This document shows, one piece after another, positions 2,687 to 25,166 of a DNA stretch of 64,000 nt. Location: the IMG/VR virus record IMGVR_UViG_3300027861_000018, positions 1-64,000 of that record; one strand, written 5' to 3'. The DNA is from a virus. Under the pieces are notes generated by a model, which was given only the letters and a program-made list of their open reading frames with translations, had not been told where the DNA came from and searched no databases. A program made the position numbers and the translations under genes. How positions within the stretch are numbered: the stretch's first letter is position 1; every line of letters starts with the position of its first letter.

Positions 2687-3204
2687 CAGAAAGGAATCTG
2701 TGATGCCGGAGCCTCGGCTGTCGCAGCTCCACAGGCCGAGCAGAACAGCTCAGCTTGCTCTTGCAGATGCGTCCAGTGGTCGCCGTCCAGCGAATCACCC
2801 CACTGGCGCTTGACCAACCAGTCATGGTGCTCAACCAGAGTCGCCACAGGAACCCCCTCCAGCTTGCCTAGCAAGATGTGGGCAGCTGATCTGTACAGTT
2901 CCAGGTTACGGGCGCGACGGCGGCCGATGCGCTTGCTGACCGCACTGGCGCTCCATCCTCGACTTCTGCACCACGCCGCCAAGGTCGTGTCCTTCTTGCT
3001 GATATTGCAGTCATAGCAACAAGTGATAAGATTCACATGGTCGGACGTGCCACCCCTCTGGCGCGAACGCACGTGATCAACGGTCAAGAAGTTGTTCCCT
3101 GCCTTTCTGATCAACTCCTGGATTGACACCCGGCAGTAAATGCACCGCATGTCGTCGCGCACATATATGGCCCATCTGGTTGCGGGGCGCAGCCACTGCG
3201 GCAT
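2686..3204 (-). CDS. HNH endonuclease
   Basis: This 172-residue protein carries an HNH nuclease signature. CIYC near residue 23 is followed by TVDHV near residue 41, then a Gly/Ser loop with asparagine (DHVNLITCCYDCN). CxxC pairs flank the DHV core, as in treble-clef HNH enzymes of the McrA type. ATG 3204 is chosen because AGGAGG lies 6 bases upstream. Free-standing HNH genes in phages are usually homing or host-takeover nucleases. The C-terminus also ends with a CSAC pair. Target and role are unknown. Confidence 0.85.
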   Translation of the reverse strand: MPQWLRPATRWAIYVRDDMRCIYCRVSIQELIRKAGNNFLTVDHVRSRQRGGTSDHVNLITCCYDCNISKKDTTLAAWCRSRGWSASAVSKRIGRRRARNLELYRSAAHILLGKLEGVPVATLVEHHDWLVKRQWGDSLDGDHWTHLQEQAELFCSACGAATAEAPASQIPF

Positions 3205-3214
3205 CACACACCTC

Positions 3215-3580
3215 CTATCGCGGCAGCGATGTGCTGGTTGTCCAGTCATGGCGTTCAGCGCCTGTTACGTCAGACAAGCGGCGCTCATCTGCGTCACGGG
3301 TTATGCACATCACCAGAGGCTCCCCATATTGGGAGCCGTGCCTCAAGATATGGCGGCGCCCAATCGCTTGAGCAGAGTTGGCCAGCCAGGCGATGGAGCT
3401 GGCCGCCTCTGGCGCCATGTCCTCCTCTTCTGACAACGTCCAGAAGATGCCCCACTTGTCGCCACGGCTGACGATTGTAAGGCACTCTGGCACTGGCTCT
3501 GGGATGGGAGGGCTTGTAGTCGAGGCGCGTTGATTGATTGGGATGAAGACGCCAAAGTGTGTGATTGTTTCAGCACTCAT
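3215..3580 (-). CDS. Hypothetical protein
   Basis: The protein has 121 residues from ATG 3580, which overlaps the upstream stop as ATGA. It has a Pro/Thr/Ser-rich segment near residues 18-30 and a compact domain after it with WGIFWTLSEEED. No family is recognised. A GTG two codons upstream is possible but the ATGA overlap fits the local pattern better. Confidence 0.6.
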   Translation of the reverse strand: MSAETITHFGVFIPINQRASTTSPPIPEPVPECLTIVSRGDKWGIFWTLSEEEDMAPEAASSIAWLANSAQAIGRRHILRHGSQYGEPLVMCITRDADERRLSDVTGAERHDWTTSTSLPR

Positions 3581-4230
3581 GAGCACGCATCACACACATA
3601 CTTGTCGCCTGATGCCCGATAAGCAATGGCGCCAACCGTCGTCAGGTCGGCGTCGCACGTGGCGCAAAGCTCAGGGGAGGGGCCGAAGACGCCAGCGCCG
3701 GTGCCCTTGATGTTATCCGCCTTCCAGTCGCGCTTTGCAACGATGCCATCCCACACAGCCGCCAGCGTGAGCCCTGCTGTCGTTCCCAAGCTCAGCGCCA
3801 TCAGCTCCATTGCCCCGATGACGCCACCAAGGCTCGCCACCTCGGCCGCAGCGTGATCTTCATCTGCGCGTATGCCTTGAGCCGCCTTTAGCCGGGCGTG
3901 AGCCAAGCGCCCCAGCGACGATACGCCCAGGCGCAACGCGCTGGCCTCTAGTTGGGCAGGGGATGGCGTGAGCATGTTGACGCACAGCTTCGCTTCAGCC
4001 ACGCTTGAGCGACCGATCACGCTTGCGTCCAGCGACAGGATGGAAGCGTGGTGGATGGCGTAGATGAGGACATCGCCAACCGCATCCGCCTTGTCGGCCG
4101 AGGTCTTGGCAGATGCCAACTCGCCCAATTCCTCCACCATTCCCTGAAGCGTCTGGTCAGCTGTGGTGTCAGGGAAATTGTGTGCCGCCCATATGCGGTG
4201 TTCAGTTTGGACGCGCTTGAAAGAGATCAC
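3577..4230 (-). CDS. MazG-like NTP pyrophosphohydrolase with C-terminal zinc ribbon
   Basis: This 217-residue protein looks like an all-alpha NTP pyrophosphatase. The N-terminal part has EELGELASA near residue 33 and DAVGDVLIYAIH near residue 49, the two acidic motifs that bind Mg in MazG and dimeric dUTPases. The last 30 residues hold CATC and CDAC, likely a zinc ribbon. Start is GTG 4230 with AAGGAG 7 bases upstream. Such enzymes cleanse or reshape the nucleotide pool, or lower ppGpp, during infection. A second all-alpha domain of this type occurs at 27613..28566. Substrate cannot be told from sequence. Confidence 0.75.
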   Translation of the reverse strand: MISFKRVQTEHRIWAAHNFPDTTADQTLQGMVEELGELASAKTSADKADAVGDVLIYAIHHASILSLDASVIGRSSVAEAKLCVNMLTPSPAQLEASALRLGVSSLGRLAHARLKAAQGIRADEDHAAAEVASLGGVIGAMELMALSLGTTAGLTLAAVWDGIVAKRDWKADNIKGTGAGVFGPSPELCATCDADLTTVGAIAYRASGDKYVCDACS

Positions 4231-4248
4231 GGCTCACTCCTTGATGAC

Positions 4249-4563
4249 CTATGCTTCCCAGCCAGGGAGCCAAAGCGCCCCTTGCCCGGGTTTGAAGATA
4301 TGGGATTGCCCCGAACAGAGCAAAGTGGACTTTGTCGGCAGGTCCTTTATCCCTACGCGATCACTGCCCTGCCACACGAGCAACCACCCATTGGGCGGCA
4401 CAACGCACTCAGATGAGTCCTTGCCCTCAAGGAGGGGTCCGACCGGGTGTGCCTTTATCTCACAGCCCATCAGGTGAGCCATGACAGCGCAGTCTGTCTT
4501 TGGAACATCCTCTTCATCCGTGTACCAACATTCCAACGGCAGTATGATGACAGGCAGTGACAT
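4249..4563 (-). CDS. Hypothetical protein
   Basis: The protein has 104 residues from ATG 4563. The start follows directly after a copy of the CTGTAGRGTA-like intergenic motif (4564..4575), so the transcript may be leaderless or may use the AGGG inside the motif as a weak ribosome site. The sequence is globular with several Cys residues. No family is recognised. Confidence 0.65.
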   Translation of the reverse strand: MSLPVIILPLECWYTDEEDVPKTDCAVMAHLMGCEIKAHPVGPLLEGKDSSECVVPPNGWLLVWQGSDRVGIKDLPTKSTLLCSGQSHIFKPGQGALWLPGWEA

Positions 4564-19878: not shown

Positions 19879-22800
19879 TCAGATGGTTGTGGAAGTTACC
19901 TCTATGACGCCATCATCGCCTAGCATGACAGTCTTCCTGTCCTTTTTGAGATCAACGCGGATTGTGCATCCAACCTTGAGCCTTGGCCCCCAATCAGCAT
20001 AGCTGTCAGGAAACACAACGACCTCCAAGCAGGAGTGGTCTGCTAACTCCAGCGTGATGAAGGCCATGTCTTGACCGGTCTTTTTGGTAATGATGTGCTT
20101 GTGACTAATCACCAAGCCGCAAGCAACAAAGGAGCGTCGGCGCTGCCAAGCCTTCCCCCTCGTCACATCCCCCTTCTTGGCGGCCCGAAATGCAGGGTGG
20201 CTGGGGGTCAAGCATTTCTCCCAACCGTCCCATGCCAATCCGTGGCGCCCCTTATTGCGCATGGTCTCCAGGTCCACCACATACAGAGCGCGGCATGCCT
20301 TTACCCCCCTCCACGTCAGCAATCGCATCGCCATGGAGGTGCCAATGCCTTGGTCTAGAATCCACCTGAACTCAGGGAAATTGTCCTGGTGGACCTTCAC
20401 GCGAACCTGATTGCCGTGGATGTCTTCGATGTTCACATTGGCATAGCGCTTGCCCCAACCCATCCTGGCCTTGGTGGCGGCATCAGGCTCCACCGTGTCA
20501 AAGTCACCCACCTGATTGTACTTGATGTCAATCATGGTGCCGGCGATGAGCGGCATGGACGGCCCTGCCCACACCTCCTCAATAGGCGTGAAGCGACACC
20601 CAGAGAGGGCGCTGGTCATGAGATTGGCATAGACGGCCATGGGATGCTTCCCGCCACCAAGGGGCGACACCTCGCCTGCTAGATACAGCAGGTCCTCTTC
20701 ATCATAGTCAGGCTCGCCATCCCAATCGGCAATCAACTCGCGCAGGGCGTCCTCCCATCCTGCTTTCTGCTTGCGGCCGATGTCCAACCAACTGCCCTTC
20801 TCCTTGATTGTCTCCAGCGCGATGCGCGTGTTGGGCAAGAGCTTCCGCATGGCGCCTGACTTGATCATCGCCCCCAAGGCGCGACTGTTGACGGCACGCC
20901 CGGCGATGCGCGCGAAGAAGTCTGGCATATCTGTGAACGGCTGGGCCTTCTGGATGGCTGTCGTAGCTGTCTCACCAACATACTTGATGTCAGTGAGATT
21001 GGAGACGATGTGGCCGTCGCCATTGATGGCGAAGCCGACACCGCTGACATTGATGTCTGGCGGCTGTACCTCGACGCCCAGGCGTTGAGCCTCTTTGGAA
21101 TAGCGGGCAATCTGCTCGCGTTTGGGCTCGTTCTGCATCAGCGCCCACATCAGCTCGGCCGGGTGGTGAACCTTCATCCACATCTGCCAATAACCAATGA
21201 TGGCATAGGCGGCTGAGTGACTCTTGTTGAATCCATAGGAGTTATGTGAGATAATGCCGGATTCACTCAAGATGTATGTGGCCGGTGCTGCGCCCATCTC
21301 AATGTCATAGGTAGCCTGGAATCCTATGTCTTCAATCGAGACAACGCGGCGGCAGTCAAGCGTTCTTCCGCGTGCTCCTCCCTGTGGCAGCGATGGCACA
21401 ATGCTTCCAGATTCTCCAAGGAGTGGTCCTGAATCCTGTTCTTGTGATGGACGTGCAGGCCCTTCAGGGCGGGGTGGGGGCTGCTCGCATCCGCCTGGGC
21501 GCCGCACCTCTCGCATACGTTGTTGGCGCGCGCCAACGCCGCTGCCCTCGCAGCCTTCCGCGCCATTGACCTTCCGTCGATGTATCCCGGATTCAATGCC
21601 CCGGTCATCTTCTTGGACTGCGCCGCGATGGATTTGTCCGTGCCCTTGGTCAAGCCAGCCTTCCAGCCCCTGCCCTTGCCGGCATGCGGACCGTAGGACC
21701 CCACTGGGCGCCCTTCCTCGCGACGCAACGCCCTGTACTGACGCTGGTAGCAACGATTGCACAACCCGCGGCAGAATGCCTGCCGCTCCTGGCACGTCGA
21801 ACACATCTGTTCTGTCGACATCCTCATGCCCCTCTGCTTCTGGCTCAATTACCATAGCTGTCGAAGAGCAAATCAGCGACCCTTCAACCAGCTCCCGCGC
21901 CTCCAGCCATCCTGTTGGCGTAGCCCAGTGATGGCCCAGTGAGCAGGCAAAGGAGGACCCGTCATCCAAGGTGATCTTGATGCACGTCTTGACGCCAGTG
22001 GGCTCCACCACCTTGATCGCATTCACCACCTCACCCTGCGGCGTCCATGACACCAGTTCTTGGCCATTGACCAGGGAATCGATGCGTTGAGAACCATGCC
22101 TGGTCTTGATTAACGTTTCCCCAGTTAGGCAGCCGAAAAAGGTGATGTCACTTATGATCTTCTCTGCCACATCGGCAGGCACGCCGCGCTCGACCGCACC
22201 GGCCACGAACTTTTCACGCTCACGCTTCAGAGTCTCATCGCCAATCTTTTTGGCGATGACCTTTCGCAAGGAGTCGGCCGTGCCTGGCGCGTATCCCGCC
22301 ATCTGTACAAATATCTTGGTGACCTGCTCTTGATACACCAGCACACCCAGTGAGTCAGAACAGATGGAATCATACAGGGGATGGACTTGCCTCTCATCAC
22401 GACGTTTGGGGTTCAGCTTCCTCTTTTTGAACTCCGTCGCCAGCCCCGACCGCGCTGGCCCTGGCCTGTTGAGAGCCACCATCGCCACATTGTCTTCGAA
22501 GCTATCAAAGGCGATGCCCTCACAAGCTGCATGTGCGCCAGTGGAATCATATTGGAAGATGCCAACATAATGGTGATCTGTGAATGCCTGAAGCGTCTCT
22601 GGGTTATCGAGCGGCAGCAGCTCATAGTCCAGCTTGAGCCCAGGATTGCGCTTCTCTGCCATCTTGCGCGCGTCATTGAGCACGGTCAGGGTTCGAAGGC
22701 CCAAGATGTCGAGCTTGAGCAAGCCCATGCCGCCAACGCCGTACATGTCCCACGCCGCCAACTTGACGATCAGGTTGTTGCGCATGTGCGTTTCGATTGG

Positions 22801-24567
22801 CACCACATCCGGGAGCGGGACAGGCGAGGTGATGACGCCGGCTGCATGCACGCCCGGCTGCCTGGCGTGGCCCTCCAGCTTCACCACCAGCGGCAAGACG
22901 TGCGGGTGGCGTGCATTGAAGTCGCGACACACTTTGAATTCCACAAAGCTGTCTGCCACAGTCTGGCTCGCACGCTCATCACCGCTGGACCGCTCAACAA
23001 TGGCGCCCGTCACATCATTGAGCTCTCCAAACGGCACACCAAGCACGCGCCCCACATCCTTCAGCGCGCTCTTGCCCTTCATGCGGCCCACTGTACAGAT
23101 GAGACTCACCTTGTCTCTGCCCCACTTCTCATGCAAGTAGGTGATGACCTCCTCACGCCGCACATCCTCAAAATCCATATCGATATCAGGCATATCGATA
23201 CGCTCAGGGCTGATGAAGCGTTCGAACAGCAAACCATGCTCAAGTGGATCCAGAGAGGTGATGCCTAGCAAGTAACACACCAGCGAGCCAGCTGCAGAAC
23301 CGCGCCCCGGGCCTGTCATGATTGGCGGCTCTGCCATATCACGGCACCAGTTGATGAGGTCGCGAACAATCAGAAAGTACCCAGGGAACTTTGCGCAGGC
23401 AATCGGCTCCTTTCCTGCCTTGCGCAGTTCCACGTCCAATTCCTTGTCCAATCGTGCCCTGTACTCTGCGACTGAATATCCTGTGACCTTGGAGCGCCCC
23501 TCGATGTCGCGCCAATCCCACCCTTCAGCGCAGAGACGGGACAGCTCTGCCACATCATCGCTGGAATCATGAGGCACTTGCGGCACCAATGCCTTGAAGC
23601 GGTCGATGTGCATCTTGTAGGTGTGTGCATCAGAGACCTCCACCGTGGCTTCAATGACCTCTGCGGCCAATTCCTCACCCATGTATGGGTGATTGGCCAA
23701 GAACGCTTCCATCATCTCAGCACCGCTGCGCAAGTGGTAGCCCTGCGGCGACCGCGGGTGATCAGGCTCCTCCATCGTCATCTTGTTCGCCAGGCACAGC
23801 AAGATGGTGTGGGCATCGGTGTCGTCAGCATTGATGTAGTGAACGTCATTGACAGCAATGAGAGGCAAGCCCAATGCCCTAGCGATGCGGATGAATGCCT
23901 TGTTGACTCTGCGGTGGAGCGGTCCGGCGTGCGGCATTAGCTCCAGATACATGCGGCCCTTGTAGGCGGCAGCCAGCTTCTTGGCGGTGCGGGCGGCTTG
24001 GGCCATCCGGCCCTGGATGACGTGATCGCCCAACAGGGAATCGGGGCCGCCAAAGCTGATGGACAGCCCCTCGTTGTGCTCGATGAGGAGCTCAACGTCA
24101 ACGCGGGGGATGCCTCGATAGCAACCTCCATCATTGTCCCAGGCGATGGACGTGAGGCGCGACAGCGACCTGAAGCCGTTGCCCTCCATCACCCTCGCCG
24201 TCACATCCCACGAGCGCATCACCTGCTTGCGTGCCTCCTCTGCTCGGATGACTTTTTGGCGCTCCCGGCCTTCCAGCCCAAGTGCAACGATATCCTCGTC
24301 ATCCTTGGTCAATCCGTGCTGACGATGGTTGGTCACGACATTGAGCACTGCGCCATAGATGGGGCGTGGCTGCTCCTCGCCGTCAGGCGTGTGCACATAG
24401 GCTGCCTTCTGAAGGTCGTATGCATATCTCAAGGTTGAGGTGTCGGTGACGCACAGCGTGCGCATCCCTAACTCTCTGCCTCGATTCACATGGGCCCCAA
24501 GCTGCCCAAATGCCTGCAGATAACTATACTCTGTGCGGCGGCGCAACTCTTCATATCGCAACGTCAT
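19879..24567 (-). CDS. dnaE: DNA polymerase III alpha subunit with in-frame intein
   Basis: The precursor has 1562 residues; removing the intein (residues 813-1109) leaves 1265. The palm catalytic motif PDIDMDF is at residues 460-466, preceded by PGRGSAAGSLVCYLLG. The conserved YGFNKSHSAAYA follows the intein. A C-terminal OB-like region (GQDMAFITLELADHS) matches alpha subunits. The N-terminal PHP domain lacks its usual metal ligands: the HxHS position reads ELRRRTEYS and the TDHG position reads VTDTST, so that active site is probably dead. ATG 24567 overlaps the kinase stop (ATGA). It would be the main replicase, working with the helicase, primase and loader encoded at 35-38 kb. No clamp or clamp loader is visible in this window. 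Confidence 0.95.
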   Translation of the reverse strand: MTLRYEELRRRTEYSYLQAFGQLGAHVNRGRELGMRTLCVTDTSTLRYAYDLQKAAYVHTPDGEEQPRPIYGAVLNVVTNHRQHGLTKDDEDIVALGLEGRERQKVIRAEEARKQVMRSWDVTARVMEGNGFRSLSRLTSIAWDNDGGCYRGIPRVDVELLIEHNEGLSISFGGPDSLLGDHVIQGRMAQAARTAKKLAAAYKGRMYLELMPHAGPLHRRVNKAFIRIARALGLPLIAVNDVHYINADDTDAHTILLCLANKMTMEEPDHPRSPQGYHLRSGAEMMEAFLANHPYMGEELAAEVIEATVEVSDAHTYKMHIDRFKALVPQVPHDSSDDVAELSRLCAEGWDWRDIEGRSKVTGYSVAEYRARLDKELDVELRKAGKEPIACAKFPGYFLIVRDLINWCRDMAEPPIMTGPGRGSAAGSLVCYLLGITSLDPLEHGLLFERFISPERIDMPDIDMDFEDVRREEVITYLHEKWGRDKVSLICTVGRMKGKSALKDVGRVLGVPFGELNDVTGAIVERSSGDERASQTVADSFVEFKVCRDFNARHPHVLPLVVKLEGHARQPGVHAAGVITSPVPLPDVVPIETHMRNNLIVKLAAWDMYGVGGMGLLKLDILGLRTLTVLNDARKMAEKRNPGLKLDYELLPLDNPETLQAFTDHHYVGIFQYDSTGAHAACEGIAFDSFEDNVAMVALNRPGPARSGLATEFKKRKLNPKRRDERQVHPLYDSICSDSLGVLVYQEQVTKIFVQMAGYAPGTADSLRKVIAKKIGDETLKREREKFVAGAVERGVPADVAEKIISDITFFGCLTGETLIKTRHGSQRIDSLVNGQELVSWTPQGEVVNAIKVVEPTGVKTCIKITLDDGSSFACSLGHHWATPTGWLEARELVEGSLICSSTAMVIEPEAEGHEDVDRTDVFDVPGAAGILPRVVQSLLPASVQGVASRGRAPSGVLRSACRQGQGLEGWLDQGHGQIHRGAVQEDDRGIESGIHRRKVNGAEGCEGSGVGARQQRMREVRRPGGCEQPPPRPEGPARPSQEQDSGPLLGESGSIVPSLPQGGARGRTLDCRRVVSIEDIGFQATYDIEMGAAPATYILSESGIISHNSYGFNKSHSAAYAIIGYWQMWMKVHHPAELMWALMQNEPKREQIARYSKEAQRLGVEVQPPDINVSGVGFAINGDGHIVSNLTDIKYVGETATTAIQKAQPFTDMPDFFARIAGRAVNSRALGAMIKSGAMRKLLPNTRIALETIKEKGSWLDIGRKQKAGWEDALRELIADWDGEPDYDEEDLLYLAGEVSPLGGGKHPMAVYANLMTSALSGCRFTPIEEVWAGPSMPLIAGTMIDIKYNQVGDFDTVEPDAATKARMGWGKRYANVNIEDIHGNQVRVKVHQDNFPEFRWILDQGIGTSMAMRLLTWRGVKACRALYVVDLETMRNKGRHGLAWDGWEKCLTPSHPAFRAAKKGDVTRGKAWQRRRSFVACGLVISHKHIITKKTGQDMAFITLELADHSCLEVVVFPDSYADWGPRLKVGCTIRVDLKKDRKTVMLGDDGVIEVTSTTI
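21241..22131 (-). other. Intein in the polymerase (297 residues)
   Basis: The intein begins with Cys (CLTGETLIKTRHG, block A) and has a block B-like segment (GSSFACSLGHHWATPTGW). It ends with block F/G sequence (VVSIEDIGFQATYDIEM, then SGIISHN), and the first downstream residue is Ser. This is the expected Cys...His-Asn/Ser splicing arrangement. Insertion is just before YGFNKSH, two residues from the well-known cyanobacterial DnaE site. Between blocks B and F, about 165 codons have no endonuclease sequence in this frame, only Gly/Pro/Arg-rich text, because that DNA encodes an HNH protein in another frame. The block B Thr of TxxH appears to be Cys, a tolerated variation. Confidence 0.92.
21324..21821 (-). 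CDS. HNH endonuclease nested out of frame inside the intein
   Basis: This 165-residue protein lies wholly within the intein DNA but in the +1 frame relative to the polymerase. Its N-terminus has zinc-finger pairs (CSTC, then CRGLCNRC). The C-terminal HNH domain has CERC, LHVHHKN near residue 130, LENLEALCHRCH and a last His (EEH). ATG 21821 has GAGGGG 7 bases upstream, so it can be made independently; an ATG at 21827 is less well spaced. The stop at 21324 comes just before intein block F resumes meaning. It is likely the homing nuclease for the intein. Overlap of two functional reading frames is the unusual feature. Confidence 0.88.
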   Translation of the reverse strand: MSTEQMCSTCQERQAFCRGLCNRCYQRQYRALRREEGRPVGSYGPHAGKGRGWKAGLTKGTDKSIAAQSKKMTGALNPGYIDGRSMARKAARAAALARANNVCERCGAQADASSPHPALKGLHVHHKNRIQDHSLENLEALCHRCHREEHAEERLTAAALSRLKT

Positions 24568-25166
24568 GCTTGCTCTCCTGCAAGGCCAAGCCAATCGACA
24601 ACTGCCGCTTCGACGGCCGACCCTATGTGCTTCTCACCATCCCAGTAAGGAACCTGGCTCACGTCCAATCGCAAGGTAGGCAGAGCTGATGCTAGGCGCA
24701 CTGCGGTGTTGAGCCTGGACCGTACCCCAGACAATCGCTCCGGATGCCGTCTGGTGTCATCTGGCGGCAGGCGTGCCATCAAATTCTCAACCGGGGCATC
24801 CAGGTGAACGATGCGGGCGTCAAGCGGGCGCAGAGTTGACGCCCACCACCTCACCAGCGCAGCGTGGGCCAGCGGCCCTTCAGGAGCATAGGCCACGCCT
24901 GATGGCATCGACCTGTCCAGGAACAACCTGGACGACCAGGCCAAGCCAGCGTTGTGATGAAGGCACGCCAGCACATCGGCCGCATACACGTCATCCACAT
25001 AGGTGTTCACAGGCACGCCGCGCTCTCGCCACTCTGCCAGTTGATCCTGCGACAAGCGCCCATCCCTCCACGCCATCGCGCGATATGGCAGGAAGTCATA
25101 GCGCGCGAGTGACTCAGACAGGGTCGTCTTGCCGACACCTTCTGGGCCTTCCAGAACGAGAATCAC
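24564..25166 (-). CDS. Thymidylate kinase-like dNMP kinase
   Basis: This 200-residue P-loop kinase starts VLEGPEGVGKTTLSESLARY, matching the TMP kinase Walker A (GxxGxGKTT). LFLDRSMPSGVAY near residue 82 corresponds to the DRY-type substrate motif, and IVHLDAPVENLMARL resembles the region before the LID, which here is LPPDDTRRHPERL. Start is GTG 25166, overlapping the aminotransferase stop as GTGA. In the same cluster as a ThyX-like enzyme it may phosphorylate dTMP or a modified dUMP such as 5-hydroxymethyl-dUMP; the substrate is inference. Confidence 0.8.
   Translation of the reverse strand: MILVLEGPEGVGKTTLSESLARYDFLPYRAMAWRDGRLSQDQLAEWRERGVPVNTYVDDVYAADVLACLHHNAGLAWSSRLFLDRSMPSGVAYAPEGPLAHAALVRWWASTLRPLDARIVHLDAPVENLMARLPPDDTRRHPERLSGVRSRLNTAVRLASALPTLRLDVSQVPYWDGEKHIGSAVEAAVVDWLGLAGEQA

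Follow-up and report, generated by a model that had tools for sequence, protein, structure and literature searches.

A phage DNA polymerase intein that probably carries its homing endonuclease as a separate, overlapping gene

Introduction

Genes fractured within split inteins, reportedly described by Dassa et al. in 2009, are said to hold a free-standing endonuclease between the two halves. Ordinary bifunctional inteins (e.g. PI-SceI) carry the nuclease in frame and release it by splicing, and the HNH endonucleases of group I introns (the I-HmuI type) are encoded inside an element whose splicing protects the host gene. Here we analyze a window of 64,000 nucleotides (positions 1 to 64,000 of the IMG/VR record IMGVR_UViG_3300027861_000018, an uncultivated virus record of 86,268 bases), in which a DnaE-like DNA polymerase III alpha gene contains an intein and the DNA of this intein contains a complete HNH gene in the +1 reading frame.

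The locus resembles each of these systems in part. As in fractured genes, a separate endonuclease gene with its own start and stop lies between the N- and C-terminal intein parts, and the solved fold nearest to the window intein is that of a split intein, gp41-1. Unlike in fractured genes, where the host gene is broken into two open reading frames (ORFs), the polymerase frame is continuous, so that cis-splicing would be expected. With bifunctional inteins the window shares a nuclease inside the intein (and with three of them, L029, L033 and L034, also the intein frame and insertion site), but its nuclease is a separate gene in the +1 frame with its own stop. With the I-HmuI type it shares a nuclease gene nested in a splicing element protecting the host gene; unlike there, splicing would act on the protein, which requires the host frame to be open across the whole nuclease gene.

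An out-of-frame HNH gene inside the intein of a large phage gene has a precedent in the large terminase (TerL) gene of a brucellaphage, for which a paper of 2015 described, in a single sentence, a putative intein-encoded HNH gene "located out of frame" (PMC4422536). By description alone, the window shows the same out-of-frame HNH within the intein of a continuous host ORF, in a polymerase rather than a terminase. The ShiLan domain (2025) is a hidden out-of-frame HNH in a mycobacteriophage methylase, which, like the one in the window, lies in a host ORF that stays open; it is patchily distributed and probably homing (PMC11855218). It differs in having no detected splicing element, so that the insert remains part of the host protein, in using the third (+2) frame and in the lack of a reported Shine-Dalgarno (SD) site (PMC11855218); the window, in contrast, has a Hint domain.

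The initial annotation of the window, made from its sequence alone, had found no standard intein class to which the layout would belong. This view cannot be upheld given the brucellaphage precedent (PMC4422536) and the recurrence of the layout, described below, at the same DnaE site and in terminase inteins. Within the openly accessible literature, the arrangement is already known, albeit little described, and what appears to be new are the polymerase cases, the two-frame selection test, the block A position and the series leading from nested to fractured genes. A preprint on actinobacteriophage inteins of "non-canonical architecture" (bioRxiv 2025.01.02.630785) lies outside that coverage, so cases like that of Gordonia phage Clown (see below) may have a prior description.

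The polymerase intein

We interpret the locus as a mobile two-layer element, very probably composed of a cis-splicing mini-intein in the polymerase and a nested +1 HNH homing-endonuclease gene with its own start (Table 1). The polymerase ORF is open from 24594 down to 19879 on the minus strand, with a likely start at the ATG at 24567, and matches the Pfam families DNA_pol3_alpha (2e-73) and DNA_pol3_finger (2e-35) as well as PHP and HHH_6. Given a translation start at Met10, the spliced polymerase is predicted to have 1265 residues. The initial annotation had placed the intein (21241-22131) and the HNH gene (21324-21821) exactly where we find them.

Table 1. Features of the polymerase locus and of related nested inteins.
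Feature	Position or locus	Strand	Basis
DnaE-like DNA polymerase III alpha gene (exteins and intein)	19879..24594	-	ORF listing and Pfam
Intein, 297 aa, polymerase frame, Cys1 ... His-Asn, then Ser+1	21241..22131	-	Translation, empty site in L002, PDB intein matches
N-terminal splicing segment (CLTGETLI ... SLGHHW ... LVEGSLIC)	21847..22131	-	TIGR01445 intein_Nterm 7e-5; AlphaFold2 pLDDT 72-85
C-terminal splicing segment (RVVSIEDIGFQATYDIEM ... SGIISHN)	21241..21354	-	Translation; alignment A7; AlphaFold2 fold of residues 260-297
Ser+1 codon, first C-extein residue	21238..21240	-	Translation, comparison with empty site
HNH endonuclease gene, 165 aa, +1 frame relative to polymerase	21324..21821	-	ORF, Pfam HNH, AlphaFold2
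HNH core HVHH ... N ... CHxCH with flanking zinc pairs CxxC	21372..21464	-	Alignment A5
SD-like AGAGGGG, 7 nucleotides upstream of the HNH ATG	21829..21835	-	Anti-SD pairing -7.4 kcal/mol
HNH genes within block A of the intein (turn joining strands 1 and 2), off the canonical endonuclease loop	L003 7205-7801; L031 8117-8617		
Phage terminase inteins with HNH_3 in +2, annotated just as terminase where annotated	L101, L102, L103, L105, L068		

The insert has the terminal residues of a cis-splicing Hint intein (Cys1, His-Asn and Ser+1), with CLTGETLI directly after the extein motif FFG and SGIISHN directly before SYGFNKSH, the continuation of the polymerase active region from Ser+1 onward. It is a precise in-frame insertion: in a relative lacking it (L002, whose polymerase is 92% identical over a 388-residue query) FFG is joined exactly to SYGFNKSH, and other relatives are empty at the same codon. 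Comparing L002 with the window, we saw no co-conversion of the flanks: identity was 73-82% all along the alignment and did not clearly increase near the site.

The intein blocks that had been claimed at both ends are further borne out by profile and fold matches to solved inteins. A profile built from six splicing domains at this polymerase site (alignment A7, with the HNH stretch removed by hand) matches such inteins over their length, with gp41-1 (3.2e-11) and Spl DnaX (5.1e-11) ahead of the weaker Mtu RecA and Npu DnaE; single members of the alignment match intein_Nterm, intein_Cterm and Intein_splicing weakly. AlphaFold2 gives a Hint-like beta structure for intein residues 1-90 and 260-297, and a Foldseek search with this model returns inteins (gp41-1 at the top, 7.5e-7). 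The residues between them (91-257) have a predicted local distance difference test (pLDDT) score below 50 except for a short stretch, closely coinciding with the HNH overlap, so that the linker overlapping the HNH gene is predicted to be disordered in the polymerase frame.

The nested HNH gene

The HNH gene starts at nucleotide 310 of the intein insert, which places it in the +1 frame, and its 3' end is overlapped by the first part of the C-terminal splicing segment. Its product matches the Pfam HNH family (PF01844, E = 1.1e-6) and PHROG HNH families (down to 4.4e-12), and has the zinc-binding pairs of HNH homing endonucleases. Among five homologs (alignment A5), which are 40-52% identical, all zinc and HNH residues are kept (C103, C106, H123, H125, H126, N137, C142, C145 and H146 being invariant). 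The AlphaFold2 model of the core (residues 84-155) has a pLDDT of about 90, and its top fold matches are HNH nucleases, albeit weak; the HNH alignment profile found no match among solved structures.

The SD-like site ahead of the HNH start ranks among the top 4.7% of start-like codons on the same strand, compared with -6.9 kcal/mol for the recA-like gene of the window; other possible starts are ATG at 21827 and TTG at 21848. Sites of this kind precede the HNH genes of the window and of five further loci (L008, L031, L035, L003 and L077), the one in L008 being a GGAGG placed 6 nucleotides before the ATG (-10.0 kcal/mol). The complete +1 HNH protein with zinc pairs, its own start and a ribosome-binding site that had been read from the window is thus supported by the family matches, the invariant residues and AGAGGGG. 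Given this start, SD-like site and stop, it is a sound inference that production of the nuclease would be uncoupled from splicing.

Two open frames in one stretch of DNA

Across the 165 HNH codons the polymerase frame has no stops, and the third frame has 6. To obtain the number expected, the HNH protein was held fixed and its codons were resampled synonymously. With the codon usage of the host gene, 5.6 host-frame stops are expected (P(none) = 0.0019), and with the HNH gene's own synonymous codons shuffled, 4.1 (P(none) = 0.0066); an independent run based on the usage of several window genes gave P = 0.0018 and 0.006. The polymerase frame is thus open beyond chance. In four related DnaE loci (L008, L009, L031 and L035) none of 10,000 resampling runs was free of host-frame stops. 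No host-frame stop occurs in any of the 11 nested inteins tested; the open frames of the terminase loci are not independent evidence, since these loci were picked for an open host frame. Stop avoidance is weak in Clown (P 0.011/0.074) and not significant in Tetrasphaera phage TJE1 (P 0.22) and Rhodobacteraceae phage LS06 (P 0.14).

The geometry of the overlap shows how both frames can be kept. In the +1 layout each host codon consists of base 3 of one HNH codon and bases 1 and 2 of the next, so that a host stop arises only where an HNH codon ending in T precedes AA, AG or GA; changing NNT to the synonymous NNC abolishes any such stop and leaves the HNH protein as it is. The six distinct DnaE loci have 0 T versus 98 C at these risky positions (174 T versus 129 C elsewhere), a count that restates the open frame, the inference itself resting on the resampling probabilities. 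The idea that this rule would hold nested HNH genes always in +1 was rejected, as one terminase group uses +2 (see below).

Selection was assessed in a close pair of terminase inteins, that of Synechococcus phage S-EIVl and that of contig L079, by the codon-position comparison that the initial annotation had proposed. Counted by HNH codon position, the differences number 15/8/49 (p = 1.9e-9). The HNH frame has 46 synonymous versus 17 nonsynonymous codon changes (identity 91%), and the host frame 10 versus 55 (identity 71%). This contrast indicates that the HNH protein is selected, whereas the linker is selected just to stay open. The DnaE family has the same tendency (HNH identity 40-52%, host-frame identity 19-31%). 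The linker had been described as 165 open codons of meaningless text; it is indeed open and, as sequence, without meaning, but not in terms of constraint, since it is kept free of stops. The opposite pattern, a broken HNH frame with a conserved linker, had been named as contrary evidence; in homologs it is the HNH frame that is preserved and the linker that varies.

Recurrence at the polymerase site

The initial annotation had also suggested searching phages for the same nested pair, and it was found both at DnaE loci and in terminase inteins. The DnaE loci were reached via the polymerase extein, a DNA pattern for the HN-SYGFNKSH junction, or alignments; the extein and junction searches set no requirement for an open overlap. 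Five further distinct DnaE inteins carry an out-of-frame HNH at the site of the window; in two of them the HNH lies off the canonical position. L009, L008 and L035 have the HNH family of the window in the same linker in +1. L031/L036 have this family, also in +1, but within block A near the intein N-terminus, and L003/L016 have a different nuclease (tandem HNH_3, 2e-19), again in +1 and within block A. Some nested loci match between separate metagenome assemblies (L003/L016 100%, L031/L036 99.8%, and, among terminases, L077/L078 99.8%). In L029, L033 and L034, by sequence inspection, the intein at this site contains an in-frame HNH motif. HNH family and insertion point combine differently from locus to locus, which favors a history in which whole HNH genes invaded mini-inteins repeatedly.

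Protein-only scans of viral contigs with the window HNH or the intein N-half gave no confirmed relatives, and two weak HNH relatives were found in genome contigs. In L011 (7165-8040) an intein with a probable in-frame HNH (Pfam 0.086) lies just past the common DnaE site, a few codons downstream, neighboring codons of one conserved motif being targeted separately.

Terminases and a possible link to split inteins

A tblastn search with the L009 HNH led to the terminase of Gordonia phage Clown (gp5), whose intein has an HNH in +1; the same layout occurs in the terminase intein of S-EIVl and its relatives (L077/L078 and L079). A second group, with HNH_3 in +2, comprises terminase inteins of TJE1, Acinetobacter phage Highwayman, LS06, gut phage MT838676 and contig L068. 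The records of TJE1, Highwayman, LS06, Clown and S-EIVl annotate the terminase alone over the HNH.

Relatives of the +2 group are found in terminase genes that are fractured. In Lactobacillus phage CL2 (L106, 506-2734) TerL with the intein N-half ends in a stop; next comes an HNH gene belonging to the +2 group, whose end is overlapped by the frame of the intein C-half and C-extein. In Brochothrix phage BL3 (L104, NC_015254, 727-2607) gp2 consists of TerL and the intein N-half and gp3 of the intein C-half and the C-extein; the two share one frame and are separated solely by stops inside a +2 HNH remnant. BL3 looks as a nested intein would be expected to look after breakage of the host frame, presumably the direction of change. 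Together, BL3 and CL2 suggest a route from a nested nuclease to a split intein.

In a further reading, inteins with a separate, overlapping endonuclease gene would form a recurrent class with several origins in DnaE and TerL, through complete HNH genes invading mini-inteins at the canonical loop or (L003, L031) in block A, and would be a source of natural split inteins, the BL3 host frame having gained stops. In our estimate the odds for this reading as a whole are even.

Methylase genes of phages provided further overlaps. DNA methyltransferase ORFs of 463-942 codons are open through an HNH on the opposite strand (L045, L046, L052-L054, L057, L061, L063, L064 and L069), at about 2700-4400 of each locus, an antisense counterpart of ShiLan. 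A sense-strand out-of-frame HNH with no evident intein occurs in the methylase ORFs of L047, L048, L088 and L038 (the methylase of Cylindrospermopsis phage Cr-LKS3).

Proposed mechanism and alternative explanations

The anatomy, the two open frames, the selection in the related pair, the empty site and the recurrence are read from the sequences themselves, while splicing, translation of the HNH by internal initiation, cleavage and homing are inferred from what is known of these families. An HNH gene complete with ribosome site, start and stop would have inserted in +1 into a tolerant linker loop of the intein; being out of frame, a complete gene with its own stop could be tolerated inside an essential ORF. 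Ribosomes in the polymerase frame would read the HNH DNA as a disordered linker of ~165 residues, with which the intein would excise itself, and ribosomes initiating at the internal ATG would yield free HNH protein. The latter most likely would cut intein-free polymerase genes during co-infection, and repair would then copy the intein along with the nested gene.

Several observations weigh against this reading. The whole window intein alone has no Pfam match, and its block B (SLGH) has Ser at the usual Thr position (TxxH). The window HNH found no match among isolated phages (nor did the L031 HNH), selection was demonstrated in a terminase-intein pair rather than on the window's own HNH frame, and in L009, S-EIVl and L079 both the HNH start codons and their SD sites are unclear. 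This last observation would suit a quite improbable alternative, in which programmed +1 ribosomal frameshifting yields the HNH fused to the intein, coupling nuclease output to polymerase translation. Geometry would allow a shift immediately ahead of the HNH, whose frame, read upstream from the ATG, first meets a stop at intein nucleotide 283. On the other hand, most DnaE loci have good SD-like sites (GGAGG in L008), the HNH gene has its own stop, and a single direction of slippage would not fit all cases, since the related TerL family uses +2. The locus could also be a decaying relic with an inactive HNH or a dead intein, as might be suspected from the metagenomic source and the low codon score of the HNH frame (0.06 versus 0.24 for core genes); this we consider very improbable, since the catalytic and zinc residues are intact and invariant, the HNH is under strong purifying selection in the S-EIVl/L079 pair, both frames are open in every DnaE case and the splice residues are intact.

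Even less probable is that the HNH acts as a phage helper, for instance a nuclease for packaging or recombination, and that its overlap with the polymerase is incidental. Packaging can be a function of HNH proteins encoded next to the terminase (Kala et al. 2014, as cited in PMC4422536), and free-standing relatives of the TerL-intein HNH adjoin terL in PAE1, SN1 and EauM-23 and lie beside terminase genes in BP10; yet the HNH is confined to the interior of inteins with precise empty sites in relatives, and its distribution is patchy and spans unrelated host genes (DnaE, TerL). Finally, sequencing or assembly indels might have split an ordinary in-frame bifunctional intein of the type present at the same site in L029, L033 and L034, a danger that the initial annotation had pointed out. 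Two compensating indels and loss of the HNH stop would be needed, whereas the same +1 layout occurs in distant contigs, in pairs of independent assemblies and in isolated phages (Clown and S-EIVl), and the host frame is stop-free beyond chance, making this explanation next to negligible. Overall, the two-layer element with a separately translated nuclease is the reading we prefer.

Implications

Structural work on why endonucleases occupy one conserved intein site expects them at the canonical loop only, and notes that random invasion by free-standing nucleases should have left some elsewhere (PMC6801210). L003 and L031 are cases of an endonuclease off that site. The out-of-frame layout illustrates how an essential ORF can take up a whole gene, and it would separate nuclease dosage from splicing. 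It also hides homing endonucleases from standard gene calling, as in the records of Clown, S-EIVl, TJE1 and Highwayman, and the long disordered linkers, if the inteins splice, are natural tests of the cargo tolerance of the intein loop. The arrangement is real and recurs in unrelated phages, and it may show how some split genes come about; with it, the origin of split inteins becomes testable by sequence. If true, the proposed class would link free-standing endonucleases, cis-inteins and fractured genes.
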